A stretch of 64,000 nucleotides of DNA from Paenibacillus ferrarius. Lineage in GTDB: Bacteria; Bacillota; Bacilli; Paenibacillales; NBRC-103111. Below, piece after piece: positions 23,219 through 51,980 of this stretch. The position numbers and the translations under genes were made by a program. Location of the stretch: assembly GCF_002027705.1 (NCBI RefSeq), contig NZ_MBTG01000066.1:1-64000 (forward strand). The letters are read 5' to 3'. The notes under the pieces are model-generated. The model did not search any database and had not been told where the DNA came from. It worked only from the letters and a program-made list of their open reading frames with translations. Numbering within the stretch: position 1 is the first letter of the stretch; every line of letters begins with the position of its first letter.

Positions 23219-23315
<97 letters not shown>

Positions 23316-23649: not shown

Positions 23650-23845
23650 CCGAAAAGCCTGCAAATGTGCAGGCATTTTCCCCAGATTTGCTTAAAAAGT
23701 GGAAATTCCTGCAATTGTGCAGGCATTTTCAGCGTATCCAGCCTTTCCTCCAGAGAAAAGCCACAAAAACCTGCACAAATGCAGGAATTTCATGATGGAA
23801 GCTAGTTCAAGCGTAAAAAAGATGCACAATTGCAGGCTTTGTTGT
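23650..23845. repeat. Palindrome array, cluster A
   Basis: Four 16-base cores of form CCTGC-N6-GCAGG or a close variant start at 23658, 23708, 23770 and 23821 (the last begins GATGC), spaced 50, 62 and 51 bases. AAAA or AAATT flanks the left side and ATTT or CTTT the right. It is one of three clusters in the window. It lies between the convergent rex and pit genes. Confidence 0.85.
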
Positions 23846-23875
23846 AAAAAGCCGCCGTAGCTGGAGAATTTCAAC

Positions 23876-23918
23876 AAAAAAAAGCTGCCCTCAAGTAGTT
23901 TAACTACTCGAGGACAGC
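23876..23918 (-). terminator. Rho-independent terminator of pit
   Basis: On the minus strand GCTGTCCTCGAGTAGTT pairs with ACTACTTGAGGGCAGC and is followed by eight T residues. The sequence closely resembles the terminator at 29883-29929. Confidence 0.92.
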
Positions 23919-23931
23919 CCCCATTAAAGGA

Positions 23932-24933
23932 TTAGAAAATAAGTCTGAATAACACGAAATAGATCGAGAACGCTAATGCGATACTAATCGGAATGGTGAT
24001 GATCCAAGTTATCAGCATACGGCCAACGGTACCCCATTGTACATCATGGAATCGCAGCACACTGCCTGTCCCAATAATGGCGGACGAAATCACATGTGTA
24101 GTCGAAAGTGGTTTACCGATAAACGTTGAGAACTGAATAACAATGGAAGAGGTTAGGTCTGAGGCAAAGCCGTTTATCGGCTCGATTTTAACAATTTTAC
24201 CTGAGACTGTTTTGATAATGCGCCAGCCTCCGATGGATGTACCAAGTCCCATCGCAAGTGCCGCGGCGATTTTCACCCAGAGGGGAACGTTAAGATCGGT
24301 TTGCACGCCGGCTGCGACGAGACCGAACACGATGATGCCCATTGCTTTCTGTGCATCGTTTCCGCCGTGCGAGTAGGAGAGCAGACCAGCGGATATAATC
24401 TGCAGGGTGCGGAACATGCGATTCAGCTTGGATCGCGATGTATTTCCTGACCAGATGACGATGTACTTGATCAACACCATGATCAGATAACCTAGCCCAA
24501 AAGCAATGATTGGCGATAGCAGCAAGATGATGATAATTTGAGTGAAGCCATCCCAATTCACAGCATGGACGCCTGCACCAGCAATGACAGCCCCAGCCAA
24601 GGCACCAAGTAGAGTATGGGAAGAGGAAGATGGGATGGAAAGATACCAAGTAAGTAAATTCCAAATAATAGCGGCAAGCAGAGCGGCAATAACGATTTCT
24701 ACACCGTTCTCAATCTTGGCTGGATTGGCGATGCTGCCCCCAACTGTTTTGGCAACTTTAGAAGAAACCATGGCTCCAACAAAGTTAAGTGTGGCTGCCA
24801 TGATGATAGCAACTCGCGGACTCAATGCACGTGTTGAAATGGAAGTTGCTATCGCATTCGCTGTGTCGTGAAATCCATTGATGAAATCGAATAGCAGAGC
24901 AAGTACAACGATAATGATTAAATAGGTTAACAT
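23932..24933 (-). CDS. pit: Low-affinity inorganic phosphate transporter, PiT family
   Basis: This 333-residue membrane protein has about ten helices and takes up metal-phosphate by proton symport. Both PiT signature regions are present: FDFINGFHDTANAIATSIST at the N-terminus and SYSHGGNDAQKAMGI near residue 192, plus GWRIIKTVSGKI and KPLSTTHVISSAIIG in the C-terminal half. It lies 61 bases downstream of the DUF47 gene on the same strand, a common pairing. AGGAGG precedes the ATG. Confidence 0.95.
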   Translation of the reverse strand: MLTYLIIIVVLALLFDFINGFHDTANAIATSISTRALSPRVAIIMAATLNFVGAMVSSKVAKTVGGSIANPAKIENGVEIVIAALLAAIIWNLLTWYLSIPSSSSHTLLGALAGAVIAGAGVHAVNWDGFTQIIIILLLSPIIAFGLGYLIMVLIKYIVIWSGNTSRSKLNRMFRTLQIISAGLLSYSHGGNDAQKAMGIIVFGLVAAGVQTDLNVPLWVKIAAALAMGLGTSIGGWRIIKTVSGKIVKIEPINGFASDLTSSIVIQFSTFIGKPLSTTHVISSAIIGTGSVLRFHDVQWGTVGRMLITWIITIPISIALAFSIYFVLFRLIF

Positions 24934-24994
24934 GAGTTCCTCCTAAGCGTTTTCCGGCAGGAAAACTTTCTTCGCACCACAGCAGCGAAAACTC

Positions 24995-25621
24995 CTATGA
25001 ATAACGAAGTACGACACTATCAAGGATATTGGCAACATCTTCGCAGGCATCCGTCGTTTCTTCCAGACGCTCATAGATTTCTTTGAGTTTGAAATCTTCG
25101 TAGGGATCTTTGCGGGTTATGAAAATTTGGCGAATGCCTTCACGCATTAAGCGGTCTCCGTCATTTTCAAGCGAATTGATGGCAACGGTATGCTCAGGAA
25201 TTTGCATATACTTTTTCTTGGCGAGCAGTTTGAAAGCATCCAGCATATGTTGGCAAGAATCCACGATGACAGCTGAAAATTCTTTCATATAAGAATCTGT
25301 GTGAGAAACAGATAAATAGTCGAAACGGGCAATGGTTGCTTCAATTCCGTCTGTGACGTCGTCAACTTTGGAAGCGAGAATCATAATGTCTTCGCGGTCA
25401 ATCGGGGTAATGAAAACCTTGTTGAGACCTTTGAAAATTTCATGCGTAATGGAATCACCAGCATGTTCTAGATCATGGATGGGTTTAACATATTCGATCG
25501 GAGGCTTTTCACCCATCATGGCTGTGCGAAATAATTGGGCGGTTTGAAGTGCGTTTTCTGCCGCACGGATAAGCAGCTGCAAGAAATCGACTTCGTTCTT
25601 TTTTGTGAATAACGTTGTCAT
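24995..25621 (-). CDS. DUF47 family protein, PhoU-like
   Basis: This 208-residue all-helical cytosolic protein of the DUF47/PhoU-related family is generally encoded next to PiT transporters and thought to modulate them. Visible segments are EVDFLQLLIRAAENALQTAQ, HDLEHAGDSITHEIFKGLNK and DVTDGIEATIARFDY; the repeated Glu and Asp residues resemble PhoU metal sites. First gene of the minus-strand pair DUF47-pit. GGAGGATC lies before the ATG. Confidence 0.92.
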   Translation of the reverse strand: MTTLFTKKNEVDFLQLLIRAAENALQTAQLFRTAMMGEKPPIEYVKPIHDLEHAGDSITHEIFKGLNKVFITPIDREDIMILASKVDDVTDGIEATIARFDYLSVSHTDSYMKEFSAVIVDSCQHMLDAFKLLAKKKYMQIPEHTVAINSLENDGDRLMREGIRQIFITRKDPYEDFKLKEIYERLEETTDACEDVANILDSVVLRYS

Positions 25622-25801
25622 AAGATCCTCCTAATATTTACTATATATACAAGATAAACGCATTCGCTCATCATTGAATAACCTCAAAAGAGGGATTTTT
25701 CGTCGATTTATGAGGATAAACAGACCCCTATGTAGAAAAAAACTCACAATGCTAAAAGTATCATAACAATCGTACTTTAAGCAACGAAAATTCCGTGACA
25801 A

Positions 25802-25829
25802 TTTACAATTTCTTTACACGGGGTTGCAT
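25802..25829 (+). promoter_or_regulatory. Candidate Pho box between DUF47-pit and mtaD
   Basis: TTTACA at 25802, TTTACA at 25813 and TTGCAT at 25824 repeat with an exact 11-base period, the arrangement bound by PhoP in Bacillus. The site sits in the divergent intergenic region of a phosphate transporter operon. The repeats read on the plus strand, so which gene is controlled is unclear. Confidence 0.4.
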
Positions 25830-25910
25830 TCTTGATTTTACAAGCCTGAAGATGTAAAGTTTAGAGTGGAGTGTTTGTCTATAGAATGAGCATAGAGAGG
25901 GTTTTTTAGT

Positions 25911-27206
25911 ATGAAAAAAACATTAATTACGAATGGTATTTTTATTTCTAATAATGAAGCGAAATCATCCATCAAAGGCTGTATGGTTATCGAAGGAAGT
26001 CAAATTACATACATCGGAGAGCAAGTTCCGGAGCCTAGAGAAAACTATGATGAAGTTATCGACGGAACTAATAAGCTGTACATGCCAGGCTTAGTTAATA
26101 CGCATGGTCATGCCGCGATGTCGCTTTTGCGTGGATATGGTGATGATCTTGCGCTGCAAATTTGGCTAGAAGAGAAAATGTGGCCAATGGAAGCCAAATT
26201 CACGTCACAGGATGTGAAATGGGGGACATTATTGTCCATTCTGGAAATGATCAAAGGCGGTACTACGACCGTAGTTGATATGTATGATCATATGAATGAA
26301 GTAGCAAAAGCTGTGGAAGAGTCCGGCATGCGCGGCGTGCTTACACGGGGTGTGATTGGACTTTGTCCTCCAGAGGTCCAAACTTCCAAATTAATCGATG
26401 CGACCGAGTTTGCCAAAACTTGGCATGGCGCAGCAAATGGCCGGATCACAACGATGATGTCGCCTCATGCGCCATATACGTGCCCTCCGGATTATATCGA
26501 ACGTATCGTTCAAGTTGCGCATGATTTGAACTTGCCGATTCACACGCATATGTCCGAGACAAGTCGAGAAGTGCAAGCGAATGTTGATCAATACGGACTT
26601 CGTCCAGTAGCTCATCTAGAGAAGCTGGGTGTATTCAGCCGACCAGCACTTATCGCTCATGGCGTTCATCTCACGGATGAAGAAATTAGCATTCTCAAAC
26701 AATACGACGTTCGTGTATCGCATAATCCAGGCAGCAATCTTAAACTGGCTAGTGGAGTGGCGCGTGTTCCTGAGCTGCTTCGTGCTGGAGTGAAAGTTTC
26801 CTTGGGAACAGACGGAGCGGCTTCCAATAACAATTTGGACATGTTCGAAGAAATGAGATTAGCGGCGTTGATTCACAAAGGAGTTTCTGGTGATCCACTT
26901 GCTGTTCCTGCTGCTGAAGCGCTGTTGATGGGCACTCGCATGGGGGCGGAATCCATATGGCTTGATCAAGTGGGTACGCTGCAGCCTGGCATGAAAGCAG
27001 ATTTTATTGCCTTGGATATCGATCAGCCGCACTTCTTGCCGAAGACGGATTTCGTTTCTCATGTCGTCTACTCGGCCTGTGCGAAAGATGTTGTAGACGT
27101 ATGCGTGGATGGCAATTGGATTGTGCGCAAGGGCGAATGCACTACGCTGGATGAAGAGAAAATTAAGCGTGAATTTGAACAATGCTTTGACCGATTGATT
27201 GGATAA
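25911..27206 (+). CDS. mtaD: 5-methylthioadenosine/S-adenosylhomocysteine deaminase
   Basis: This 431-residue amidohydrolase deaminates MTA or SAH to the inosine forms. The metal-site motif NTHGHAAMSLLRG lies near residue 63, with IHTHMSE near 205, AHGVHL near 240 and the acidic residue in SLGTDGAASNN near 298. The fold is a metal-dependent TIM barrel. Other amidohydrolases such as guanine deaminases are related, but the motif set favours MtaD. Its substrate links it to the methionine-salvage genes at 35-45 kb. Divergent from DUF47-pit. Confidence 0.85.
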   Translation: MKKTLITNGIFISNNEAKSSIKGCMVIEGSQITYIGEQVPEPRENYDEVIDGTNKLYMPGLVNTHGHAAMSLLRGYGDDLALQIWLEEKMWPMEAKFTSQDVKWGTLLSILEMIKGGTTTVVDMYDHMNEVAKAVEESGMRGVLTRGVIGLCPPEVQTSKLIDATEFAKTWHGAANGRITTMMSPHAPYTCPPDYIERIVQVAHDLNLPIHTHMSETSREVQANVDQYGLRPVAHLEKLGVFSRPALIAHGVHLTDEEISILKQYDVRVSHNPGSNLKLASGVARVPELLRAGVKVSLGTDGAASNNNLDMFEEMRLAALIHKGVSGDPLAVPAAEALLMGTRMGAESIWLDQVGTLQPGMKADFIALDIDQPHFLPKTDFVSHVVYSACAKDVVDVCVDGNWIVRKGECTTLDEEKIKREFEQCFDRLIG

Positions 27207-27248
27207 GCAGATAACCGGTAAGTTCGTCTGGGGAGGTGAGCGGTGTTT

Positions 27249-27737
27249 ATGAATCTGAAGCGATCCATCACATTAGGTGTATTTATTATCTTGACACTTG
27301 GTGTCGTGCTCAGCCGCTTTTACTTGAATGTACAGAGTGAATACTGGGACGGAAAAAGCAAAGCAGTAGAAACGGCTTATGAGAAAAGTATCATGACCAA
27401 AGCAACCAAGGTAGATTTTTTCTATGGAGATGAGCCGTTCCAAATTGTGTATGGTGAAGATAAGATTGGCCAAAACCTGATCGTTTGGGTGTCAGATAAA
27501 GAAGTCCATTCGGAAATGTCGGATGAAGGTTTTACAGAAGATCAAGTGCGAGATGTCATATTGAAAAAGGGCCAAGACTTTGAGGTCCAACGTGTGATAC
27601 CAGGCAAGCTTGGTCAAGATTATGTGTGGGAAGTGTTCTACAAAAGACAGGAAGACGGCGGCACGCGCCATTTCTATGATTATTATAAATTCAAAGACGG
27701 ACAATATTTGGATACGTATCGACTCAGCCTTCAGTAG
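27249..27737 (+). CDS. ypmB: DUF5590 protein (YpmB-like)
   Basis: This 162-residue protein has one N-terminal membrane helix (about 8-25) and an extracytoplasmic domain of the YpmB type. Family function is unknown. GGGAGGTG is 10 bases upstream of ATG 27249; a GTG 6 bases earlier is possible. In Bacillus, ypmB lies between dinG and asnS, matching the order here. The stop codon is inside the terminator loop. Confidence 0.78.
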   Translation: MNLKRSITLGVFIILTLGVVLSRFYLNVQSEYWDGKSKAVETAYEKSIMTKATKVDFFYGDEPFQIVYGEDKIGQNLIVWVSDKEVHSEMSDEGFTEDQVRDVILKKGQDFEVQRVIPGKLGQDYVWEVFYKRQEDGGTRHFYDYYKFKDGQYLDTYRLSLQ

Positions 27738-27750
27738 GCTGAGTTTTTTT
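27722..27750 (+). terminator. Rho-independent terminator after ypmB
   Basis: ACTCAGCCT (27722-27730) pairs with AGGCTGAGT (27736-27744), then seven T residues. The ypmB stop overlaps the loop. Confidence 0.9.
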
Positions 27751-27851
27751 GTTTCCACTCATTTCATAGAGCAATCGTGTATATGCCGTGATATACTTCT
27801 CGTATAGAAACGGACGAAACAAAATAACCGTAGAAAGGGGGACGTTGACTG

Positions 27852-28382
27852 ATGAAGCTGCGTCTCTTACCTGTCGTGTTGAGTGTTATTATCTCTGCCG
27901 GTGTTTTGTTCGGCGGTTGGTTTGCCTATACAAGCTTTGCAATGGAAAATCCGTTAAGCGACATTATAAGCAAGGTTCCCGGTGTAACAAGCTCTACCAT
28001 GAAATTGAACAATGACCGTGTTGATATAGAAGTTGCTTTAAGCCAAGATGCCAGTTTAAGAACGGTCGTTGATCGCATTCACAAAGATGGAGCCTCGATA
28101 ATTGGCAAACGTACAGTTAATATTGATGTCAAAAACAACCCGTCAGACAAGCTCGAGCTGTGGTGGTCCAAAGCCTTGTTCGAGGTTGCTCAAGCCATGG
28201 AAACCAAGCATTATGCGGACATTCCAACCACCTTGCAGAAATATGCTGCAGAAGTTCCGACGATGAAAGTGGAAACTGAAATGGATCAGTCGAATGTGTA
28301 CATTCGTTTGACAGATGGTGATGCTACGAAATTTATCATGCTGCCTAGATCGTCACAGATAGGAGTGTGGCCGAATGAGTAA
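27852..28382 (+). CDS. Membrane-anchored partner protein of the FtsH-like protease
   Basis: This 176-residue protein has one N-terminal membrane helix (about residues 5-30) and a soluble domain expected outside the membrane. I recognise no named domain. The last 8 bases overlap the start of the FtsH-like gene, so the two are translationally coupled. The soluble part (about 140 residues) is of mixed alpha and beta character with no catalytic motif. Because the protease lacks its usual external domain, this protein could supply one in trans; that is inference. GAAAGGGGG precedes the start. Confidence 0.85.
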   Translation: MKLRLLPVVLSVIISAGVLFGGWFAYTSFAMENPLSDIISKVPGVTSSTMKLNNDRVDIEVALSQDASLRTVVDRIHKDGASIIGKRTVNIDVKNNPSDKLELWWSKALFEVAQAMETKHYADIPTTLQKYAAEVPTMKVETEMDQSNVYIRLTDGDATKFIMLPRSSQIGVWPNE

Positions 28383-29877
28383 AATATATAAGGAAATCGG
28401 TATCGGATTTATCCCTGTTTTACTTATCTTTCTTGTTTTTTTGGGTGTAAATGTGATTCCGGTATTGTTTGTCGCGGTTCTCGGTGTTTCTTTATTTTAT
28501 ATGATTAGAGGCCGCGGAGGCGTTGGCGTCGCAACTGGCGGTGAACGCAAAAATAAAAACCGCACACCTTCCTATTTAACCTTTGATGAGATCGGCGGAC
28601 AAGACCGAGCAAAGAAGGAGTTAACGGAAGCTCTTGATTTTCTGATCAAACATGAAGAAATGAAGAAGCTGGGCATTCGACCGCTCAAAGGGCTTTTGCT
28701 TACAGGCCCTCCTGGGACTGGGAAAACATTAATGGCTAAAGCAGCCGCGCATTATACGAATTCTGTTTATTTGGCGGCTTCAGGAAGTGAGTTTGTAGAA
28801 ATGTATGTCGGTGTCGGTGCCAGCCGTGTGCGTGATTTATTTAAGGAAGCCAGAACACGTGCGGCCAAAGAAGGTAAAGACAATGCCATCATTTTTATTG
28901 ATGAGATTGATGTAATTGGCGGTAAGCGTGATGGCGGTCAGCAGCGAGAATATGATCAGACCTTGAATCAGCTGTTAACAGAAATGGATGGCATTCATAC
29001 GAACGACGCTCCGCGTATTCTGATCATTGCGGCAACGAATCGTAAAGAAATGCTAGATAGTGCTTTATTGCGCCCTGGTCGATTTGACCGTCATATTGAA
29101 GTAGATTTGCCTGATAAAAAGGGCCGTCTCTCTATTTTGGATATTCACGTGAAAAATAAACCTTTAGCCAAGAGTGTTTCGCTGGATACAATTGCAGATC
29201 AAACCTTTGGCTTCTCCGGAGCTCAGCTGGAAGGCGTTCTGAATGAAGCAGCGATTTATGCTATGCGTGAGGAAAAACCGGCTATTGAGCAGCATCACCT
29301 TGCTTCGGCGATTGATAAGGTGATGATGGGCGAGAGAACAGATAAAGAAGCCGCATTAGAGGAAAAAGAGCGTGTCGCCTATCATGAACTAGGCCATGCG
29401 ATCATTGCCGAAATGGTTCGTCCTGGTTCGGTTTCTCAGGTTACGGTGAGTCCACGCGGAAAAGCACTTGGTTATGTGCGTCATAATCCTCCGAAGGACC
29501 ATTACTTGTACACGAAAGATTATATTGAACATCAGATCATGATTGCTCTTGGTGGTGCCGCGGCCGAAGAAATCTTCTACGGCGGACGCAGTACGGGCTC
29601 CCGAAATGACTTCGAGCAGGCTCTTTCCATGGTGCGCAATATGATGGATTCCGGCTTAACATCGCTTGGTATTATCGACCGTGAGATGGTGACGAAGGAT
29701 CAGCTGATGAAAGAAAATACGGCGATTCTGGATGCGCTGATGATACGCACGAAGGAATTGCTAGAGCAGCAGCGCAGCGTATTCGAGCATTCTTTTGCGA
29801 TATTGATGAAAGAAGAAGTCCTCTCAGGTGATACGTTCCGTACCCTGTTTGATGCTTCTGTTTCACAAAGTGCATAG
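28375..29877 (+). CDS. FtsH-like AAA+ zinc metalloprotease lacking the external domain
   Basis: This 500-residue protein has two membrane helices almost back to back (about 8-24 and 27-44), Walker A GPPGTGKT (111-118), pore segment FVEMYVGVGASRVR, Walker B IIFIDEID (172-179), an SRH with arginine fingers (ALLRPGRFDR), zinc motif HELGH (337-341) and a likely third ligand Asp412. FtsH degrades membrane and short-lived proteins. Canonical FtsH is longer (about 610-650 residues) with an external domain of about 70 residues between the helices, missing here. Probably a second FtsH paralogue, not the housekeeping one. Confidence 0.92.
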   Translation: MSKIYKEIGIGFIPVLLIFLVFLGVNVIPVLFVAVLGVSLFYMIRGRGGVGVATGGERKNKNRTPSYLTFDEIGGQDRAKKELTEALDFLIKHEEMKKLGIRPLKGLLLTGPPGTGKTLMAKAAAHYTNSVYLAASGSEFVEMYVGVGASRVRDLFKEARTRAAKEGKDNAIIFIDEIDVIGGKRDGGQQREYDQTLNQLLTEMDGIHTNDAPRILIIAATNRKEMLDSALLRPGRFDRHIEVDLPDKKGRLSILDIHVKNKPLAKSVSLDTIADQTFGFSGAQLEGVLNEAAIYAMREEKPAIEQHHLASAIDKVMMGERTDKEAALEEKERVAYHELGHAIIAEMVRPGSVSQVTVSPRGKALGYVRHNPPKDHYLYTKDYIEHQIMIALGGAAAEEIFYGGRSTGSRNDFEQALSMVRNMMDSGLTSLGIIDREMVTKDQLMKENTAILDALMIRTKELLEQQRSVFEHSFAILMKEEVLSGDTFRTLFDASVSQSA

Positions 29878-29882
29878 TGCAG

Positions 29883-29929
29883 GAGCTGTCCTCTAAGTAG
29901 ATCAACTACTTGGGGGCGGCTCTTTTTTT
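29883..29929 (+). terminator. Rho-independent terminator after the FtsH-like gene
   Basis: GAGCTGTCCTCTAAGTAG pairs with CTACTTGGGGGCGGCTC, followed by seven T residues. It is closely related in sequence to the pit terminator at 23876-23918. Confidence 0.92.
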
Positions 29930-30253
29930 AAAAGTACATATGCCTCGACAGCCCAGACCTCCTCTACTAGCCTGAATCATTAAATTCCTGCGATTATGCA
30001 TGTTTTTAAGAATTTTTCTGACCTCTCTTTTCACAGAAAGCGGCGTTCAATTTGGCATAAGAATAGGCATTTTCTATGATCTAGCATATGTATCTGAAAT
30101 GTGTCTAAGGTGAGAAAGTCTCAGGAACGTTTTGTGTATACTAATGAAATTAAGCATCAAAAATTGTATGATATGAGTGGGTTTTCATGATTCGCAGGAA
30201 CCCATAGACATAGATTTCAGTTCGATCACGGGGCAAGAGAAGGAGAAATAGGT
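29930..30253. other. Intergenic region with one palindrome core
   Basis: No gene is seen. One isolated core of the palindrome family, CCTGCGATTATGCATG, is at 29987-30002. TATACT at about 30137 may be the -10 element of hbd, but no good -35 matches it. Confidence 0.5.
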
Positions 30254-31126
30254 ATGAACTTTAAAACAATTGGCGTCGTTGGTGGCGGCACAATGGGGCA
30301 AGGGATTTCGGAAATGCTTGCCGCTCGTGGCCTGGAAGTCAGAATTGCCGAGAAAACAACTGAGAAACTGGACCGTGCGTTAGAGCAAATTACGGTCAGC
30401 TTAGATAAGCAAATAGAGCGCTGGGCGATGACAGAATCGGAGAAGAAGCTGATTTTGGCTAAAATAAAAAAGGCAGATTCGCTTGAGGATATGGCCGAAT
30501 GCGATATGGTTATAGAAACGATTACCGAAGACTTGAATGCTAAAAAGCATGTCTTTTTTCAGTTAAACCAAATATGCAACCCTGCCATTATTTTGGCGAC
30601 CAATACATCGACTTTAAGCGTTACCGAGATTGCAGCCATTACAACGAATCCACAGCGGGTTATTGGGTTGCATTTTCTGCATCCAGTAGCCAAAATCGAC
30701 CTTGTCGAAATTATTCGGGCGATGAAAACATCGGATGAAACATTTGAACGCACAAGACGTTTCGTAGATGAGCTAATTTTGAAAAAAAGTATTAAGGTGA
30801 ATGAATCACCTGGATTTATCACAACAAGATTGATCTGTACGTTAATCAATGAGGCGCTGCACACGTTATCAGAGGGTGTTGCTTCGGCTGAAGATATCGA
30901 CACGGCCATGCGGATCGGCTATGACTTCAAATATGGTCCACTGGAAATGTGCGACCGATTCGGGCTGGATTCCGTTCAGGCTGCTCTGGAAGGCATGTTC
31001 CGCGATTACGGAGACATTAAGTACCGTCCATCCTTCCTATTGAAGCAAATGGTGCGAGCAGGCCATCTAGGGGCTAAAACAGGGGAAGGCTTTTTCCGCT
31101 ATGATAAGGATGGTGATCGTCTATGA
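30254..31126 (+). CDS. 3-hydroxyacyl-CoA (3-hydroxybutyryl-CoA) dehydrogenase
   Basis: This 290-residue NAD(P)-dependent dehydrogenase acts on 3-hydroxybutyryl-CoA or related acyl-CoAs. The Rossmann loop GVVGGGTMGQGISEM is at residues 7-21. NTSTLSVTEIA near 117 and the catalytic region HFLHPVAKIDLVEII near 138 match the hbd/mmgB family. AGAAGGAGAA precedes the ATG. It overlaps ackA by 4 bases, so the two are coupled. No thiolase or crotonase gene is nearby, so the pathway (butanoate, PHB or fatty acid use) is open. Confidence 0.9.
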   Translation: MNFKTIGVVGGGTMGQGISEMLAARGLEVRIAEKTTEKLDRALEQITVSLDKQIERWAMTESEKKLILAKIKKADSLEDMAECDMVIETITEDLNAKKHVFFQLNQICNPAIILATNTSTLSVTEIAAITTNPQRVIGLHFLHPVAKIDLVEIIRAMKTSDETFERTRRFVDELILKKSIKVNESPGFITTRLICTLINEALHTLSEGVASAEDIDTAMRIGYDFKYGPLEMCDRFGLDSVQAALEGMFRDYGDIKYRPSFLLKQMVRAGHLGAKTGEGFFRYDKDGDRL

Positions 31127-32331: not shown

Positions 32332-32397
32332 TTGTTTGGAGAAAATAGTGTACAATAGATAAGGATTCTGAAACACATAAGGAGGTTCGATCGGAAG

Positions 32398-33687: not shown

Positions 33688-33731
33688 ACAGATTTATCAA
33701 CCATGGGTAGAAAGGGGAGCCGAATCGCACA

Positions 33732-34412: not shown

Positions 34413-34423
34413 AAGTTGGAACA

Positions 34424-34465
34424 AACCTCCATCCCCCTCGTTAGCCGTGGGGTTGGAGGTTTTTT
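34424..34465 (+). terminator. Rho-independent terminator after dnaD
   Basis: AACCTCCATCCCC (34424-34436) pairs, with one mismatch, to GGGGTTGGAGGTT (34449-34461), then a T run. Confidence 0.9.
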
Positions 34466-34514
34466 AACATGCTTACAAGTAGGGGTTGTTTGGCTTGGTG
34501 TAAATCCGAGTGAG

Positions 34515-34932: not shown

Positions 34933-34959
34933 CCTATGTATCAGTTACCCGATGTTGAC

Positions 34960-41441: not shown

Positions 41442-41466
41442 GTGTCAGCTCGCCTCTCTTTCTTAA

Positions 41467-42567: not shown

Positions 42568-42602
42568 AACGATCCCATCCTTTATTTCTATATATGTATA
42601 TA

Positions 42603-42886
42603 CAAAAAAGACTCCCGTCCTTAACACATAAGGACGAAAGTCTGTTGCTTCCGCGGTACCACCTTAGATTGGCGCATGCCTCAAGGCAGCACCCACTCTA
42701 GATTCCCTAATAACAGCAGGGGGCTGTTCAACTCATCGTTGACTGTTCAGGGGCGGGTTCAGAATCGGTTCACGGCAGGCTCTCTCAGACTATGGAGCTT
42801 ACTCTCTGGCTACGTGCTTTACGTTCCTACTATTCCCATCATTACGTTGCGATATAGAAGTTTTTGAGGACTTCCTTTTTTGGTTC
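42603..42886 (-). promoter_or_regulatory. T-box leader of the pro-mtn operon (proline-type)
   Basis: On the minus strand the T-box core AAGGTGGTACCGCGG (42647-42665) precedes a terminator hairpin (CTTTCGTCCTTA...TAAGGACGGGAG, then T residues, 42603-42645). Stem I features AGTA and GTGAACC are upstream. Proline codons (CCC or CCT) lie in the expected specifier region GAACCCGCCCCTGAAC near 42741-42756. The gene content supports proline specificity; which triplet is read is not certain. Confidence 0.9.
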
Positions 42887-42891
42887 TATCT

Positions 42892-42921
42892 AGAATAGCA
42901 CGCTGATCGAATGTTTGTAAA
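42892..42921 (-). promoter_or_regulatory. Promoter of the pro-mtn operon
   Basis: On the minus strand TTTACA (42921-42916) and TATTCT (42897-42892) are separated by 18 bases, just before the T-box leader. Confidence 0.6.
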
Positions 42922-42967
42922 GAAGCAAGCACCTAATTCACCAACGCATTGAGCCTGTTCGTGGCGA

Positions 42968-44170: not shown

Positions 44171-44322
44171 GGTTTAATTCACACTCCGAAGGTCGGGATT
44201 TTGATTAATATCCTTAATGTAACATGATTAAACTTTTTTTCATAGTGATGAAAATAATCGATTTTACTTCCGGCTTTCCTTGTCTTATGGTTATCCCATA
44301 GGATGAGAAAGGTGATGAGACG

Positions 44323-44847
44323 ATGTCGGAACAATCCCAAGTCGCAGAAGCTTTTTTGCAGGAATCAATACGTGCGTTTGTCAATATGAAAAAGCTGGCG
44401 GATAAAGCCTTGGCTCAAACCGCGGAAGCGCATTTTTATTTAACCTTAGATGAAGAGTCGAATTCCTTGGAAGTGCTGATCAAGCATATGCATGGGAATA
44501 TGAGATCTCGCTGGACGGATTTCTTAACCACAGATGGTGAGAAAGAAACAAGGGAACGCGATGGCGAATTCGAAGGCAAACAGCTTGCGCGTGAAGCGCT
44601 GATTTCCCTTTGGGAGGAAGGCTGGGCCATTCTTTTTCAGACGTTGGAATCCCTCACAGCTGAGGATGTTCTCAAAATTGTCCTTATTCGTGGGGAGGGA
44701 CATACGGTACTGCAGGCCATTCAGCGGCAAGTTTCGCATTATGGCTATCATGTTGGGCAAATCGTATTTCTGAGCAAGCATTGGGCAAGTGCGCATTGGC
44801 AGACTCTGAGTATTGCCAGAGGACAGTCCAAATCGTTTAAACCATAG
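44323..44847 (+). CDS. DUF1572 protein of the DinB superfamily
   Basis: This 174-residue helical-bundle protein is DinB-like. Candidate metal histidines are in IKHMHGNMRSRW near residue 50 and RQVSHYGYHVGQIV near 145, the usual triad layout. Some DinB-fold proteins are bacillithiol-dependent S-transferases; whether this one is cannot be told from sequence alone. GAGAAAGGTGATGAG precedes the start. Confidence 0.85.
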   Translation: MSEQSQVAEAFLQESIRAFVNMKKLADKALAQTAEAHFYLTLDEESNSLEVLIKHMHGNMRSRWTDFLTTDGEKETRERDGEFEGKQLAREALISLWEEGWAILFQTLESLTAEDVLKIVLIRGEGHTVLQAIQRQVSHYGYHVGQIVFLSKHWASAHWQTLSIARGQSKSFKP

Positions 44848-44929
44848 CGCTAATGATTGAGTTGAACACTAATTTCGACTACTATGAGGAGATAGCACTA
44901 TTTTTGCCCATGAAAGGAGTTTCGAGCGC

Positions 44930-45730
44930 ATGTCCGAATCACAGTTGTTGCATATTGCTCTAATTCAAATGGATATTACCATCGGTGAGCCCGATACTAA
45001 CTTTTTGCACCTGGAAAAACTTTTGGAGCAAGCGATTCAGGCTGAGCAGAAGCCGGACGTTATTGTGTTTCCCGAAATGTGGAATACAGGCTACGCCTTG
45101 ACCGAGATTCAGCAGCTAGCTGACTCAAACGGGGAACGGACGAAGGCCTTTCTCAGTAAGTTTGCCCAAAAGCATCAAGTCAATCTGATCGGCGGTTCCA
45201 TCGCGGATAAAAGAGAAGATCGTGTCTTGAACACGATTTATGCGTTTGACCGGGAAGGCACGGAAATCGCGGAGTATTCCAAAATTCACTTATTCCGTCT
45301 GATGGACGAGGAAAAGTTTCTGCATAGCGGGGATCAGCTTGGCCGTTTCGAGCTTGAAGGCGTTCCGGCAGGTGCCATGATCTGTTATGATATCCGGTTT
45401 CCTGAGCTTGCTCGCAAATTAGCGCTTGATGGCGCTAGAATTTTGTTCGTTCCTGCGGAATGGCCGCATCCTCGCTTGCATCACTGGCGTACGCTGCTTA
45501 TGGCTAGAGCAATTGAAAATCAAATGTATGTTGTTTCTTGTAATCGTGTAGGGACGAGTGGAACGACGAATTTCTTCGGACATTCGATGGTCATTGATCC
45601 TTGGGGCGAGGTTTTGGTGGAAGGTGACGAGCAGGAAGCGATTTTGCGTGCGACGATTGATCTGACAGAGGTCGTGCGTGTGCGTGCCAAGATACCTGTT
45701 TTTGAAGACCGTCGTCCGCATTTATACTAA
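44930..45730 (+). CDS. mtnU: Omega-amidase of methionine salvage (MtnU-like nitrilase)
   Basis: This 266-residue carbon-nitrogen hydrolase has the Glu-Lys-Cys triad in FPEMWNTGYAL, YSKIHLFRLMDE and MICYDIRFPE. The sequence follows Bacillus subtilis MtnU (YkrU) closely in these regions and in its C-terminus (IPVFEDRRPHLY). It would hydrolyse 2-oxoglutaramate formed when a glutamine-using transaminase such as MtnE acts. AAAGGAG precedes the ATG. Confidence 0.9.
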   Translation: MSESQLLHIALIQMDITIGEPDTNFLHLEKLLEQAIQAEQKPDVIVFPEMWNTGYALTEIQQLADSNGERTKAFLSKFAQKHQVNLIGGSIADKREDRVLNTIYAFDREGTEIAEYSKIHLFRLMDEEKFLHSGDQLGRFELEGVPAGAMICYDIRFPELARKLALDGARILFVPAEWPHPRLHHWRTLLMARAIENQMYVVSCNRVGTSGTTNFFGHSMVIDPWGEVLVEGDEQEAILRATIDLTEVVRVRAKIPVFEDRRPHLY

Positions 45731-45755
45731 AAATAAAAAGTTTAGCGGATACCGT

Positions 45756-45784
45756 TTGATTTTTTGACGGTTTTTCTGTAAACT
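45756..45784 (+). promoter_or_regulatory. Promoter of the glyS T-box
   Basis: TTGATT (45756-45761) and TAAACT (45779-45784) are separated by 17 bases. Confidence 0.5.
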
Positions 45785-45789
45785 AAAGC

Positions 45790-46027
45790 CAATTGAATGA
45801 TCAATTGTGGCTGTGAAGGATGAATAGTACTTGAACAACTTCTTGTTCAGCGAGCTGGGGACGGTGAGAGCCCAGACAGAAGCTCAAGGAAAAAGGCTAT
45901 CCGGAGCCAATACGATAAAGGGGATGCACGCTTTGAACAGGTGTATCAACTAGGGTGGAACCGCGGGTGCTTCAGGCTCTCGTCCCTAGGCATTCTTTGA
46001 TGCCTTTGGATGTTGAGCCTTTTTTGC
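45790..46027 (+). promoter_or_regulatory. T-box leader of glyS
   Basis: Stem I features are present: AGTA at about 45827, and GAGCTGGGGACGGTGAGAGC near 45852. The T-box core AGGGTGGAACCGCGGG is at 45951-45966. The terminator arm GGCTC...GAGCC runs into T residues at 46019-46025. A GGC glycine triplet at 45895-45897 lies in the plausible specifier region. It would raise glyS expression when tRNA-Gly is uncharged. Confidence 0.92.
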
Positions 46028-46100
46028 GTCTGCTCAGCACCAGAGGGGTCAGTAGAGGTCATTGACCCATTTTACGAGAAGATGAAGGAGCGATTGAGCA

Positions 46101-47483
46101 ATGAGTGTCACAATGGATCAAGTCGTAGCATTAGCGAAACACAGAGGTTTTGTATTTCCAGGCTCGGAAATTTATGGGGGTTTGGCGAATACGTGGGATT
46201 ACGGTCCACTGGGTGTTGAACTCAAAAACAACATCAAACGCGCATGGTGGAAAAAATTCGTGCAAGAATCCCCGTACAACGTCGGTCTTGATGCAGCGAT
46301 TCTGATGAACCCGCAAGCATGGGTGGCATCCGGTCACGTAGGCAACTTCAACGATCCGATGATCGATTGCAAAAGCTGCAAAGCCCGTCATCGTGCAGAT
46401 AAATTGATCGAGAACAAGCTGGCGGAAAAAGATATCGAAATCATCGTGGACGGCATGACCTTTGACGATATGATGAAGCTGATCGTGGATAACGAGATCG
46501 TTTGTCCAGATTGCGGAAGCAAGGATTTCACGGATATTCGTCAATTCAACCTGATGTTCAAAACGTTCCAAGGCGTAACAGAAGCCAGTTCCAATGTGGT
46601 GTACCTGCGTCCGGAGACGGCACAAGGGATTTTCGTCAACTTCAAAAACGTACAGCGCACGATGCGCAAAAAACTGCCATTCGGTATCGGCCAAATCGGC
46701 AAAAGCTTCCGTAATGAAATCACGCCAGGCAACTTTACGTTCCGTACGCGTGAATTCGAGCAAATGGAGCTTGAGTTCTTCTGTAAGCCAGGAGAAGACA
46801 TGAAATGGTTCGAGTACTGGAGAAGCTTCTGTCACAACTGGTTGTTGTCGCTGGGCGCTAAGCCAGACAATCTTCGTCTGCGTGATCACAACGAAGATGA
46901 GCTTTCCCACTACAGCAATGCTACTACAGATATCGAATACAAATTTCCATTCGGCTGGGGCGAGCTGTGGGGTATCGCTGATCGTACCGATTTCGATTTG
47001 AAACAGCACATGGAGCATTCCGGTGAAGATTTCAATTACATCGAACAAGATACGAATGAGCGTTATGTTCCTTATTGTATCGAGCCTTCACTAGGTGCTG
47101 ACCGGGTTACATTAGCACTGTTGATTGATGCTTTCGAAGAGCAGAAGCTCGAAGGTGACGACAGCCGTACGGTTCTTCATTTCCACCCGGCGCTTGCACC
47201 GGTTAAAGCAGCTATTTTCCCGCTATCCAAGAAATTGAATGAAGGCGCACAAGCCGTATTTGCCGATCTTGCGAAGCATTTCATGGTGGATTACGATGAT
47301 ACAGGATCCATTGGCAAAAGATATCGTCGTCACGATGAAATCGGTACGCCATTCTGCATCACATACGATTTCGAGTCCGAAACCGATGGTCAAGTAACGG
47401 TTCGTGACCGTGATACGATGGAACAAACTCGGATGCCGATCTCCGAATTGAAAGCCTTCATCGAGAACTCACTTCAATTTTAA
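46101..47483 (+). CDS. glyS: Glycyl-tRNA synthetase (alpha2 type)
   Basis: This 460-residue class II synthetase is the single-chain dimeric type, unlike the two-gene alpha2beta2 form. N-terminal [39 protein letters not shown] and [22 protein letters not shown] (motif 2) and the C-terminal anticodon domain are clear. GAAGGAG precedes the ATG. Controlled by the T-box upstream, terminated at 47489-47534. Confidence 0.97.
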
Positions 47484-47488
47484 TAGCC

Positions 47489-47534
47489 AAACCCCCTGTA
47501 AGCACGCATTGCTGCGTGAATGCAGGGGGTTTTT
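47489..47534 (+). terminator. Rho-independent terminator after glyS
   Basis: AAACCCCCTG and CAGGGGGTTT enclose an inner CACGC/GCGTG stem, then T residues. Confidence 0.9.
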
Positions 47535-47539
47535 CATAG

Positions 47540-48031
47540 TTAGATGACATAGTCAAGGATTTCGCTATAGGGGAGGTATCGTTCTACTTGTCGAAGGGGC
47601 GGACTATAGACATGGATCGAAATGGCCGCTTCTGAGCTAGGATTGCTCAGCTGATGAATTTGCTCGGAGGGAGCTGTGAAGTATTCTTTTGCGTTAATGG
47701 CATCCTCAGTGTCGGCCACAGGGTACCCTTCACAATCCAAATGAAATTTGGTGTTGATTAAGGAGCCTTGTGTTAAATAGGCAACTCCGATGGATTGACC
47801 GTGATTGTGGATAGCAGTAGCTTCAAATGCTGGAATATGGATAACGATCACTTCTAAGTTTGTAGCGCTATAAATGACATTTCGGCCATAAGCCAGATGC
47901 TCTGGTTCTGTTTTATATTTCGGGACCTCATGGAGCAAGCTTTCGATGGATGTCATCGCTGCTTGAAGTTGTTCAAGCGATGGCTCCTGCAATTTACAGA
48001 ATGACTGTTCAATTGCTTTCAATAATGTCAT
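47540..48031 (-). CDS. Cysteine dioxygenase family protein
   Basis: This 163-residue cupin resembles cysteine dioxygenase, which oxidises cysteine to cysteine sulfinate with non-haem iron. Iron-binding histidines are visible in AIHNHGQSIG near residue 80 and QIHQLSN near 130. YGRNVIYSATNLEVIVIHIP matches the family strand. ATG 48031 follows AGGAGG; upstream in-frame codons are not needed. Substrate (cysteine or another thiol) is not certain. It converges on glyS. Confidence 0.85.
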   Translation of the reverse strand: MTLLKAIEQSFCKLQEPSLEQLQAAMTSIESLLHEVPKYKTEPEHLAYGRNVIYSATNLEVIVIHIPAFEATAIHNHGQSIGVAYLTQGSLINTKFHLDCEGYPVADTEDAINAKEYFTAPSEQIHQLSNPSSEAAISIHVYSPPLRQVERYLPYSEILDYVI

Positions 48032-48177
48032 GGTTTTCCGCCTCCTAGGCATTGTTTCTTTATCACGAAAAATTAGTCAAGCGATAAGAAATATTTATAT
48101 ATCATATGCGCGCAACGTTCAAAGTGTTAGGGAGTTTGTTGATGCAACAAAAAAGGCGATTGGAACATAGCAGTCTT

Positions 48178-48465
48178 TCACAACTGCCGAATCCAACCGC
48201 CTAATTTAAATTGCAAATGGTTCATGGGGGAGACTGTACGCGGAAAGGAGGCATACGTCTTCCATCTATATCCGTACGATTCCGCCAAGGCTCCAACCTC
48301 GAGAAGCTGCCCGCTTTTCTGAGAAACGTAGGGATCATAAGCTAATGCGACGACAGCCCGTCCCATATATTCAACGGATTCTGTCGGATGCAAAGCTTCA
48401 ACAAGCAAGGGCGATACCACGGCCGCTGCCGCGACTAGCGCCAGTAACTACAGCGATTTTCCCAT
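48178..48465 (-). pseudogene. Remnant of a short-chain dehydrogenase/reductase
   Basis: On the minus strand ATG 48465 starts MGKIAVVTGASRGSGRGIAL, the cofactor-binding N-terminus of an SDR. The frame stops after 22 codons. In the next frame from 48420 come about 80 codons (LVEALHPTESVEYMGRAVVA then DPYVSQKSGQLLEVGALAE), the SDR C-terminus. The central 150 or so residues with the Ser-Tyr-Lys active site are missing, so this is an internally deleted and frameshifted gene. Confidence 0.85.
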
Positions 48466-48524
48466 GCAAGCTTTTCTTGGGATTCATGCAAATGCTTAAC
48501 GTTGACAATAGTTGTCATGGTATT

Positions 48525-49493
48525 TCAAGTTATGTTGGGGCCGTATGCATGCTGCATGGCATGAATCTGCTCGCGAATCCATTGCACCATTTCTAGCGGC
48601 TCCTCGACAACCGCTTCTTTGCCCAGACTCAAATAATATTTGGAAAAATAATGTAAGTTGCTGGGATGGAACTCGGTGATGAGCAAACCGCTGCCGTCTT
48701 CCTTGTGTTCGAGGTTCTCATCCAGCCCGTTGCTGCGTTCATAAGCTCTTACGCCATCGGGAGTCAGCCTGACTTTCAGCTTCAAATAGGAAGCCTCTGT
48801 CGTCATGTCTTGTCCTGCTTTGAGCCAGTCGCCTAGCGTATAGTGCTGGAAGCTTTGGCGTGGATGGTCGGCTTCAGCGTTCTCAAGGGCTAGGATGCGA
48901 TCCGCGCGAAATAGGAGAATGGCTTCCTTCCGAAAGCAAAAGGAGGGGAAGTACCAGAAGCCATTCGAGGAATAAATGCCGACAGGCTGCACAACTCGCT
49001 CGGTAACCCCTTCTTTGGAGGAATAAGTAAGGTGCAGAGGCTGCTCTGCGATCGCTGCTTCCAATAATTGCTCCAGGAAGGGGGAGCTTTGCGTTCGAGT
49101 TGGAGTCCAGAAGGAGACACGATCCTTCATAGCATCTATACGCGCCTTCGTATCTGACGGGAGATAGTGATAGAATTTATTCAAGGCTGTTGTTGATTCT
49201 GCTGCAAAAGGGAGCGCTCCATAAAACTGGAGCGACTGAAAAGCGAAGAACATGGCAGCGGCTTCTTGTTCCGAGAAGAGGATCGGCGGGAGCATCCTCT
49301 TTTTCAATAAACGGTAGCCCCCATGCGGGCCAAATTCCGTATAAAGCGGCATGCCAAGTTCGCTCAGCTCTTGCAAATAACGGTGCATGGTCCGCTCCGA
49401 TACTTGGAATTCGTCAGCCATTTCCTTGGTGGTAAATTGCATGCGTTCGTTTACGGCCATCATGAGTTGAATCAATCGCTGTGTTTTGTTCAT
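48525..49493 (-). CDS. HTH and WYL domain transcriptional regulator (YafY type)
   Basis: This 322-residue regulator has an N-terminal winged helix (about 1-60: TKEMADEFQVSERTMHRYLQEL) and a WYL effector-binding domain (about 140-310, with GFWYFPSFCF at the usual WYL position). Its neighbour on the same strand is the decayed SDR gene, which may have been its target. The effector is unknown. Confidence 0.92.
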   Translation of the reverse strand: MNKTQRLIQLMMAVNERMQFTTKEMADEFQVSERTMHRYLQELSELGMPLYTEFGPHGGYRLLKKRMLPPILFSEQEAAAMFFAFQSLQFYGALPFAAESTTALNKFYHYLPSDTKARIDAMKDRVSFWTPTRTQSSPFLEQLLEAAIAEQPLHLTYSSKEGVTERVVQPVGIYSSNGFWYFPSFCFRKEAILLFRADRILALENAEADHPRQSFQHYTLGDWLKAGQDMTTEASYLKLKVRLTPDGVRAYERSNGLDENLEHKEDGSGLLITEFHPSNLHYFSKYYLSLGKEAVVEEPLEMVQWIREQIHAMQHAYGPNIT

Positions 49494-49514
49494 TGCTTTG
49501 ATTTCCTCCGAATG

Positions 49515-50408
49515 TTAGACAATTGTGCCCATCACTTCTTTCATGGTAGACACGAAAGCTTCCGCTGCTTTAGAAATGTATCTGCCTTTGCGATACGCAA
49601 TTACCAGGGTCCGCGTTGGTCTGTCTTCAAGAGTTAGATGGACAGGGAACAGCTCGCTGAAGCTTCGCTTCGAGATTAAGTAAGGCACGAAAGCAATGCC
49701 CATACCGGCTGCTACAAGCGATTGCACGGTTTCCATGTTGCTGGATTCGAAAACGATATTTGGCGTTATGCCGGCTTCTTGGCATAATTCCAGCGTCAGC
49801 TTGCGAAAGCCCTGCCCTTTTTTCAAAGCGATAAAGGCTTCCTTCTCGAGCTGTTTGATGCGTATCGGCTCATTGCTAGCGGCTAAAGGGTGCTTCGGTG
49901 GTACGGCAAGGACGATTTCTTCCTCCAGCAAGGTTTCGTAGACGAGCGATTCCTCGCGCAGGGGTAGAGAGAGCAGGGAAATATCTGTTTGACCGTTCAT
50001 AGTTAAAGTTTCTAAGTTTGCCGAGGTTTCCTCTACGAGCGAGATCTCGATATCCGGATAAGCAGCTTGAAAGGCAGGTACAACCAAAGGCAGTATCGTC
50101 GACCCCGTAATTGGCATGCTGCCGACAACGAGGCGGCCTTTTTTCATTTGCGAAATATCTTCCATTTCCTTCTTGAGCTGTTCAACCATATCGAGAATTT
50201 TTTGTGATTTCTCTACAAAAAGGGCTCCAGCGTGCGTGAGTTCAACCGAATTCGTACTGCGCTGAAAGAGAAGGACGCCTATTTCTTTCTCAAGCTTGGA
50301 TAATTGCTGGCTAAGCGAAGGCTGGGCGATGTGAAGCTTTTCCGCGGCGCGCGAGAAATTTCGCTCAATCGCAATTTGAATCGCATATTGAAGTTGACGT
50401 AATTCCAT
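49515..50408 (-). CDS. LysR family transcriptional regulator
   Basis: This 297-residue regulator has the LysR winged helix (1-60: MELRQLQYAIQIAIERNFSRA, PSLSQQLSKLEKEIGVLLF) and a type 2 periplasmic-binding-like effector domain (about 90-295). Effector and targets are unknown. It lies 21 bases upstream of the WYL regulator on the same strand, so both may be cotranscribed. Confidence 0.95.
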   Translation of the reverse strand: MELRQLQYAIQIAIERNFSRAAEKLHIAQPSLSQQLSKLEKEIGVLLFQRSTNSVELTHAGALFVEKSQKILDMVEQLKKEMEDISQMKKGRLVVGSMPITGSTILPLVVPAFQAAYPDIEISLVEETSANLETLTMNGQTDISLLSLPLREESLVYETLLEEEIVLAVPPKHPLAASNEPIRIKQLEKEAFIALKKGQGFRKLTLELCQEAGITPNIVFESSNMETVQSLVAAGMGIAFVPYLISKRSFSELFPVHLTLEDRPTRTLVIAYRKGRYISKAAEAFVSTMKEVMGTIV

Positions 50409-50583
50409 GGATAGATCATCTCCTGAAAAGTAATCATATAAGCTGTATTTGATTGGTTCTACCTATAATGCTTATCCTTACTATATCAGATAATGACCAT
50501 TTCCACGCAAAAAGCAGTCTGCGGATAAGTTCCACAAACTGCTTTAGGCTGGTTATTTGTAAATTGAAGGCATCCTATTGTTA

Positions 50584-50730
50584 TCAATTGCTTCTTCTTC
50601 CTGTTACCAAATTAAATATTAATGATATCAAGGCCAAGACAAGAAGCAGATGAATCAAACTCCCGCCAATTCCAAACCCCATTCCCAAAGCCCACATCAC
50701 AAGTATAATAACGAAAATTGTCCAAAGCAT
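50584..50730 (-). CDS. Small membrane protein, lmo0937 family
   Basis: This 48-residue protein, MLWTIFVIILVMWALGMGFG followed by a second hydrophobic helix and the basic tail GRRSN, matches the short two-helix lmo0937-type family of Firmicutes. The start at 50730 follows AAAAGGATG; longer in-frame starts add a non-conserved polar stretch. Function unknown. Confidence 0.85.
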   Translation of the reverse strand: MLWTIFVIILVMWALGMGFGIGGSLIHLLLVLALISLIFNLVTGRRSN

Positions 50731-50959
50731 AGAAACACACATCCTTTTCATACTGGTATAATTGCTTATACTAGACTCTAACCACCTATTTCGATTTTCA
50801 AACACTCATAGACGGAGAGATAGCTTTGTGAGAGGGAGCGGAAGACAGTTGGCAGCAGGGTTATACCTGTCATTTTGTTTAGACACACTTTATCGCCGCG
50901 CGTTGGCTTGAGTCGCTTGAGTATGCCCATGCTGGCAGAGTGCCTTAGGCTCGTCCGTT

Positions 50960-51165
50960 TGTTTCGCATAATTCCTGCGTATATGCATCCTTTTTGGCTT
51001 GGGAACGGGGGAAATAGGGAAAAGCCTGCGATTATGCATCCTTTTGAGAGCTTTTTTCGATTTCAGGTTGGAAAAGCTTGAAAAGCCTGCATAATCGCAG
51101 GCTTTTTGGTGTTTTCACCCGATTTGATCGAAAAAGCCTGCACTTTGGCAGGCTTTCATAATCGG
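50960..51165. repeat. Palindrome array, cluster B
   Basis: Four 16-base cores start at 50974, 51025, 51086 and 51137, spaced 51, 61 and 51 bases. The first two end GCATC (CCTGC-N6-GCATC), the last two are full palindromes. The left border GTCCGTTTGTTTCGCATAA and right border CTTTCATAATCG also bound cluster C, so B and C are related copies of one element. Confidence 0.9.
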
Positions 51166-51260
51166 TGAGTCACGCATAATACCTATAGCTGGTATAATCG
51201 CTAACCTTGGTTTTGAGCGCCTGGTTATTATTGCTAAAGATAACAAATGATTAGTTAAAT

Positions 51261-51732
51261 GTTGGAGTGAGTAGAGTGGCTGGAGCTACTGGAGTGACTG
51301 GGGGATTGGAGTAGCTGGAGTGCTGGAATTACTGGAGTTATTGGAGTGGCTGGAGTGACTGGAGTGGTTGAAGTGGTTGAAGTGGTTGAAGTGGTTGAAG
51401 TGGTTGAAGTGTCTGGAGTGATTGGAGTAACTGGAGTAACTGGAGTAACTGGAGTGTCTGGAGTGACTGGAGTGACTAGAGTGGTTGAAGTGATTGGAGT
51501 AGCTGGAGTGTCTGGAGTAACTGGAGTGATTGGAGTAGCGGAGTGTCTGGAGTAACTAGAGTGACTGGAGTGGCTAGAGTATCTGGAGTAGCTAGAGTGA
51601 CTAGAGTGGTTAAAGTGTCTGGAGTAACTGGAGGGACTGGGGTGGTTGAAGTGTCTGGAGTAGCTGGAGTGGCTTGAGTATCTGGAGTGATTAGGGTGAT
51701 TGGAGTAGGAGTGGTTGAGCCGCTGAAGTCGC
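51261..51732. repeat. 9-bp degenerate tandem repeat (TGGAGTNNC)
   Basis: About fifty copies of a 9-base unit with TGGAGT or TTGAAGT core, including five near-identical TGGTTGAAG units at 51364-51410. Open frames in it encode low-complexity V-x-x or T-P-x strings without a ribosome site, so I do not call a gene. It lies exactly between palindrome clusters B and C. Confidence 0.95.
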
Positions 51733-51769
51733 TTAAGGCTCTGCCCAAGTTGTGAGTTTTACTTCACGT

Positions 51770-51980
51770 CCGTTTATTTCGCATAATTCCTGCGAATATG
51801 CATCCTTTCGAGGTCTTTTTTCGATTCTAGGATTGAAATCCTTAAAAAGCCTGCACTATCGCAGGCTTTCTGGTGTTTTCACCCGATTTAATCGAAAAAG
51901 CCTGCACTATCGCAGGCTTTCTGGTGTTTTCACCCGATTTAATCGAAAAAGCCTGCACTTTTGCAGGCTTTCATAATCGC
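51770..51980. repeat. Palindrome array, cluster C
   Basis: Four 16-base cores start at 51789, 51850, 51901 and 51952, spaced 61, 51 and 51 bases. The last three share a 51-base tandem unit whose spacer reads TGGTGTTTTCACCCGATTTA, also present in cluster B. Borders match cluster B. Confidence 0.92.

Follow-up and report, generated by a model that had tools for sequence, protein, structure and literature searches.

What unit do the dispersed palindromes of the Paenibacillus ferrarius genome belong to, and what holds them at fixed distances from one another? The question is raised by a stretch of 64,000 nucleotides (contig NZ_MBTG01000066.1, positions 1 to 64,000; hereafter the window), which contains thirteen 16-bp sites of the type CCTGC-N6-GCAGG. 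A reading made from the sequence alone (the sequence-only reading) had placed twelve of these sites in three clusters, with start-to-start steps of 50, 62, 51, of 51, 61, 51 and of 61, 51, 51 bp, and the thirteenth on its own at 29987; all positions and steps were recovered. The sites form a non-coding element of about 187 bp, in which four palindromic sites follow each other in the order P1-51-P2-61-P3-51-P4 (bp from start to start, mostly within 1 bp). This geometry is observed directly, and binding is what we infer: the reading that we favour, at a rough probability of 0.58, is a phased array for a putative dimeric DNA-binding protein, dispersed through the genome.

Architecture of the four-site element

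Successive sites of the element are separated by steps of 50/51, 61 and 50/51 bp. Each site is built around a TGC-N6-GCA core and either carries both arms of CCTGC-N6-GCAGG or has one arm replaced by GCATC/GATGC; in the P. ferrarius genome (G000) the longer form AAA-CCTGC-N6-GCAGG-TTT is found. Sites with GCATC had been described as half-variants. They are indeed present, but GCATC is the regular centre-facing arm in the G000 copies, usual in P1 and often found in P2. In G380, which belongs to another family of the order, this arm is placed elsewhere in the element, so that the arm rule is lineage-specific and the spacing is not. The middles of the G000 sites read roughly CRATTRTG in P1 and P2 and CAYAATYG or CAYTTTYG in P3 and P4; two sites are thus oriented one way and two the opposite way, in a dyad-symmetric order. 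As expected from this dyad, full copies are also scored on the reverse strand by the element profile, with lower values.

The window harbors two full copies (A and B), one rearranged copy (C) and one remnant. All sites listed below were assigned by site match, the fused site of element C additionally by alignment with the ortholog in G003, the genome of the nearest relative.

23654..23840, minus strand: element A, full four-site copy; profile score 144.9 bits; same-place copy in G003
23821..23836, minus strand: P1 of element A, inner arm GCATC on the minus strand
23770..23785, minus strand: P2 of element A
23708..23723, minus strand: P3 of element A
23658..23673, minus strand: P4 of element A
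29987..30002, plus strand: remnant with one site, identified by ortholog alignment
50970..51156, plus strand: element B, full four-site copy; profile score 140.8 bits; ortholog in G003
50974..50989, plus strand: P1 of element B
51025..51040, plus strand: P2 of element B
51086..51101, plus strand: P3 of element B
51137..51152, plus strand: P4 of element B
51768..51971, plus strand: element C, rearranged, with P1/P2 fused and the P3 unit doubled; partial profile matches of 103.6 and 52.6 bits; regular ortholog in G003
51789..51804, plus strand: fused P1/P2 site of element C
51850..51865, plus strand: P3 of element C
51901..51916, plus strand: duplicate of P3 of element C
51952..51967, plus strand: P4 of element C

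Three points of the sequence-only reading change in the light of this architecture. Cluster A, which had appeared unlike the other two, is the same element on the opposite strand, as follows from an element that has both a direction and a dyad. The 61, 51, 51 spacing of cluster C is not a second layout. Compared by eye with its regular G003 ortholog, cluster C reads as the product of a 51-bp deletion, which fused P1 and P2, together with a duplication that copied the 51-bp P3 unit exactly; the locus contains a 51-bp tandem repeat of 2.5 copies with 97% matches. Finally, the supposed single copy at 29987 is a remnant: its counterpart in the alignment is P2 of an element that G003 has in full length at the same place. 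The view that the spacing is more conserved than the sequence was borne out, the spacing being fixed while the spacers are unrelated.

Spacing, abundance and distribution

With up to 2 mismatches, the 16-mer occurs 44 times in the window; shuffled sequences average 23.1 (sd 5.7), and none of 100 reached 44; within the window, clustering is the stronger signal than the 16-mer count. Genome-wide, 447 perfect 16-mers are found in 9.2 Mb, against 8 for the reversed pattern. The preference for 51 and 61 bp, named beforehand as the point on which the sequence-only reading should stand or fall, is upheld in 864 kb of G000, in a scan of 392 genomes of the order and in a half-turn control. Besides the window, the 864 kb consist of 40 tiles of 20 kb each, picked as contig runs or by the presence of the 16-mer, never by spacing. 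Pairs of sites are 50/51 bp (51 pairs), 61 bp (28), 111/112 bp (50) and 162/163 bp (21) apart, the two larger classes being sums of the smaller ones, and all other distances up to 250 bp have 0 to 4 pairs each. Half-turn-shifted spacings gave no match in 14 genomes, all of which were positive with the correct spacing. These two sets are the ones free of spacing bias.

The same distances recur in DNA gathered by the element itself. In 28 loci of other species and genera (L108-L135), found by a full-length profile that allows gaps but favours the same spacing, TGCR-N4-YGCA-like cores are separated by 49-52 bp (34 pairs), 60-62 bp (16), 110-114 bp (33) and 160-165 bp (17); only three other pairs occur up to 200 bp, one each at 8, 69 and 116 bp. 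Throughout 2.34 Mb, part of which had been gathered by spacing, adjacent sites are 49-52 bp apart in 279 cases and 59-62 bp apart in 164, and no other distance up to 140 bp occurs more than 4 times. For L144-L223 (80 loci from 88 stretches) the P2-P3-P4 spacing was preset by the search pattern and the P1-P2 spacing was free. From 153 profile matches with coverage above 170, 138 elements were kept (coverage of at least 178, four sites, at most 1 mismatch in TGC/GCA), their sites being allowed to lie up to 6 bp from where they were expected. The false chains C3:132505 and C2:252057 were dropped, and alignment A1 comprises 29 of 30 elements, with one element split by a tile edge omitted.

The element reaches far beyond the window, into related genomes as the sequence-only reading had proposed to check. 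Of the 104 family genomes, 35 contain relatives that the profile detects, and these represent 10 of 22 genera; about 24 candidates were scored per genome, so that copy counts saturate. The TGC-N6-GCA triple at element spacings is present in 70 of the 392 order genomes, G000 included, and in 20 of 49 genera, with no control matches; carriers include G106 of family f4 and many members of family f10. In a phylum-wide draw of 398 genomes, G000 was the sole match and the other 397 had none. Among the matches listed are Paenibacillus alba, P. oenotherae, P. whitsoniae, P. sambharensis, P. tarimensis and Cohnella zeiphila, together with single matches in Thermomonospora and Paraburkholderia that may be due to chance. 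Perfect 16-mers number from 10 to 447 across 30 genomes of the genus, which marks the family as patchy. No match was obtained in plasmids and phages with one element as query, and no description of the repeat was found in the titles and abstract openings of the open-access literature searched.

Relative to genes, the elements are enriched where gene ends converge and seldom lie at promoters. Out of 143 elements scored, 18 overlap, by more than 60 bp, a mechanically defined open reading frame (ORF) with 130 codons or more. The 88 elements located between two ORFs comprise 36 in convergent, 47 in tandem and 5 in divergent gaps, compared with 32, 216 and 52 among 300 element-free control gaps of at least 200 bp. 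Of the tandem copies, 28 of 47 lie closer to the 3' end of the upstream gene; 25 have the same direction as the genes and 22 the opposite one. A promoter operator of a regulon is not supported, given the scarcity of divergent gaps and the lack of orientation of the tandem copies with the genes.

Conserved arms and the proposed protein array

For 18 element rows of G000 (window, C3 and C2), 14 counterparts were found in G003, equal in place and strand; 2 of the 14 are remnants in G000 (window 29966 and C3:85050). Of the unpaired rows, one corresponds to the second half of cluster C and another falls outside the synteny coverage. In 12 ortholog pairs (sites taken from either genome, windows at least 60% identical, the two remnants omitted), 7 of 414 arm positions are changed, as compared to 26 of 252 in the loops and 155 of 1397 in the spacers (Fisher p 3e-11 for arms versus spacers and 1e-6 for arms versus loops). 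Without the filter the counts are 17/430, 30/256 and 193/1461, respectively; with sites defined on G003 only they are 7/401, 28/257 and 113/1020, and in another version 10/310, 25/186 and 92/717. This low rate of change suggests that the arms went on being recognised in both species once these had split.

Pairing within the sites appears to be under less constraint. The 88 non-redundant elements display little base-pair covariation within sites, the first arm pair is an uncompensated mismatch in 20% of P1 and 10% of P2, and for the two outer P1 pairs the fraction is about half. The RNAalifold covariation term amounts to only -0.57 of -19.82. Hairpin formation is not the conserved feature. Fixed spacing, unrelated spacers, conserved arms and little hairpin covariation together favour protein binding. 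A nucleoprotein complex with several sites would need such a combination of fixed spacing, free spacers, constrained arms and dyad order.

In the proposed mechanism, each site would bind a dimer of one putative DNA-binding protein, and four dimers on one face of the DNA could build a compact loop or wrap. At gene ends, the element may then shape the nucleoid or act as an insulator, which is a guess as to its role; the protein, the stoichiometry and the gene-end role are what we infer. That all sites share the same face, as the sequence-only reading had supposed, holds at 10.2 bp per turn, where 51, 61 and 163 bp correspond to 5.0, 5.98 and 15.98 turns, and is a matter of arithmetic. A more specific version, which we put forward tentatively and with clearly less confidence, is that of an order-specific chromosome-organising site: a dedicated protein would place four dimers on 16 turns of DNA, forming particles, nucleosome-like or looped, at some hundreds of gene ends in each high-copy genome; selection would keep the sites, although they spread and disappear as mobile DNA does.

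Several observations weigh against the protein array. At 10.5 bp per turn, 51, 61 and 163 bp give 4.86, 5.81 and 15.5 turns, so the phase is clean only at 10.2. All versions of the ortholog comparison agree in direction, but the contrast is weakest in the strictest one, restricted to the 4 loci that could be aligned on both sides (arms 4/150, loops 9/90, spacers 29/485, flanks 138/2810). Site calling favours near-consensus sites, and exchange between copies could explain part of the arm conservation. Some pairs within sites exceed shuffled expectations (z 4.8 for P1 pair 7 and P3 pair 4, 3.6 for P4 pair 4), and 3 of 23 RNAalifold pairs are changed on both sides. Long-range correlations are found between P2 and P3 (z 4.7 and 3.0) and between P1 and P4 (z 3.1); these would also be expected if one protein variant reads both sites. 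Two of the 18 G000 rows, C3:199098 and 45703 of the joined C2 stretch, have no G003 counterpart at the expected place. The patchy distribution, with no element found in some close relatives, argues against an essential role. Moreover, the conserved binding protein that the sequence-only reading had proposed to look for was found neither among the genes neighbouring the window elements nor with Y1_Tnp, the two places considered.

Turnover, rival explanations and surroundings

The sequence-only reading had offered a protein array or a copied element. The two fit together, and the interpretation is supported in part: hundreds of copies, patchiness and loci that are empty in relatives imply gain or loss of copies. 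Element A was not found at its place in G006, G021, G012 and G027; the gap, about 730 bp in G000, measures 44-46 bp in G006, G021 and G027 and is occupied by a different 329 bp in G012. At an element locus of G005, about 340-400 bp are missing in G013, G015, G020 and G010, with flanks that are 88-95% identical. Empty loci and decayed copies thus indicate that copies come and go. A query with the G005 locus, flanks included, gave 20 matches in G005, 26 in G015, 11 in G010, 5 in G020 and 3 in G013, none of the last three on the element itself. These five close relatives differ greatly in copy number and form a good set for catching fresh insertions.

Changes also affect parts of the element. In G000, P1 is lost at C3:36855 and C3:55275, C2:113906 has a near-exact duplication of a 61-bp unit and C4:46866 a repetition of 60-bp units; single units are probably gained and lost by recombination or slippage between sites. 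At C4 40001-60000 (L050, ~6866-7350), five or six 60-bp P1-type units precede a normal element, a local one-unit expansion. In P. oenotherae DT7-4, whole elements stand in tandem at one locus (L179) with a period of about 233 bp and 70 bp from the last site to the next first site, and a 51-bp P3-P4 unit is repeated several-fold at another (L151).

The strongest rival is a non-autonomous transposon, in which the sites would bind transposase, two per end, and the ends would be brought together, as in Mu, Tn7 or Tn552. The dyad order with two sites each way, the high and patchy copy number, the G005 locus that is empty in four relatives and the four relatives in which element A was not found at its place all fit this explanation. 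However, no constant termini are seen: the outer arms are inverted, but shared flanks stop at varying places between copies. The G005 locus displays by eye only imperfect C-rich repeats and no clear target duplication. Among 130 site clusters with a 50/51-bp step, in DNA partly gathered by the 60-62-bp spacing, only 2 lack a 60-62-bp step; no element interrupted by a gene between P2 and P3 was seen among these clusters. Selection on orthologous arms would not be expected in dead insertions either, and we regard a transposon as unlikely, though the best of the alternatives. Miniature inverted-repeat transposable elements (MITEs), including Correia elements with a site for integration host factor (IHF), are short non-autonomous repeats that can carry a nucleoid-protein site (PMC10969869); the present element differs in having four sites instead of one, with no terminal repeats or target duplication demonstrated.

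Less probable still is a neutral or selfish repeat of the REP/BOX type with no present host function. The intergenic location, the 3'-end bias, the many relatives in which it was not found and the decayed G000 copies suit such a repeat, whereas a geometry kept despite unrelated spacers and arms constrained after species divergence do not. REP sequences and the bacterial interspersed mosaic elements (BIMEs) built from them are high-copy palindromic repeats, often inverted dimers, patchy between species and with GTAG or CGTC tags, the CGTC type seemingly lacking a dedicated transposase (PMC3733652). The element resembles them in being high-copy, palindromic, inverted in order and patchy, but differs in its fixed quartet at 51-61-51 bp; the consensus of 138 elements contains no GTAG or CGTC tag, its site edges being A-rich and T-rich instead. 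The transposase search was limited to Y1_Tnp (PF01797), which occurs in 36 of the 104 family genomes, namely in 11 of 35 with an element match and 25 of 69 without, and has no match in the high-copy carriers G000 and G003. A RAYT partner was rejected on this lack of association. BOX, RUP and SPRITE of the pneumococcus are small interspersed repeats whose proliferation was confined to some species, and they are discussed via secondary structure (PMC3049150); here spacing and arms are kept and pairing is not.

RIB and RIP BIMEs, which are bound by IHF or gyrase, are dispersed and have been proposed to act via a DNA-binding protein. They are unlike the present element in sequence, host group and geometry.

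A structured RNA or a bidirectional transcription terminator array is quite improbable: perfect sites fold as A-stem-loop-T hairpins, convergent gaps are frequent and some pairs exceed shuffles, but covariation is slight, many broken pairs are uncompensated, no Rfam match was found (none on the window elements at gathering score, none up to E 0.5 in five other element-bearing loci) and the fixed 51/61 spacing is left unexplained. A CRISPR array is not supported, the sites being non-identical, inverted in order and grouped in quartets rather than identical direct repeats.

The surroundings of the window elements contain further repeats and genes. One repeat lies between B and C:

51263..51706, no strand assigned: 9-bp minisatellite TGGAGTGAC, about 50 copies; association only, not assigned to the element

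Near element A, GATAA is repeated about 20 times (23220-23315) and a 10-bp unit, CATGAGATGT, 3.5 times (23513-23547). Short tandem repeats occur in 14 of 76 element gaps versus 18 of 251 control gaps, the element gaps also being longer (median 640 versus 480 bp). Two terminator-like hairpins (~23883-23921 and ~29883-29924) are alike by eye in an AAGTAG...CTACTT-like core and a GGACAGC-like outer stem, and similar ones adjoin elements in C5, in C1 and in the G012 gap. A scan of the window with a hairpin consensus, allowing 3 mismatches, found none, so the two hairpins do not fit that simple motif. A pan motif RNA (RF01749; 16626-16745, plus strand, 42.1 bits) is the sole Rfam match of the window at gathering score. 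Pfam matches of the six genes adjoining the window elements comprise a CoA-binding DNA-binding regulator, which we take to be Rex-like, a PHO4 transporter, an AAA/M41 peptidase, a 3-hydroxyacyl-CoA dehydrogenase, a LysR regulator and the aconitase family. None of the six is mobile, and a partner by gene neighbourhood was discarded.

Dispersed palindromes of bacteria are usually described by their sequence or their hairpins. Here the conserved property is geometry, across 20 genera of one order, which directly predicts a single protein that holds four sites on one face. Finding such a protein would reveal a nucleoid or insulator system of a new kind, or else the recombinase behind an unusual non-autonomous element. 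The element itself could mark unannotated non-coding DNA in a large bacterial group.

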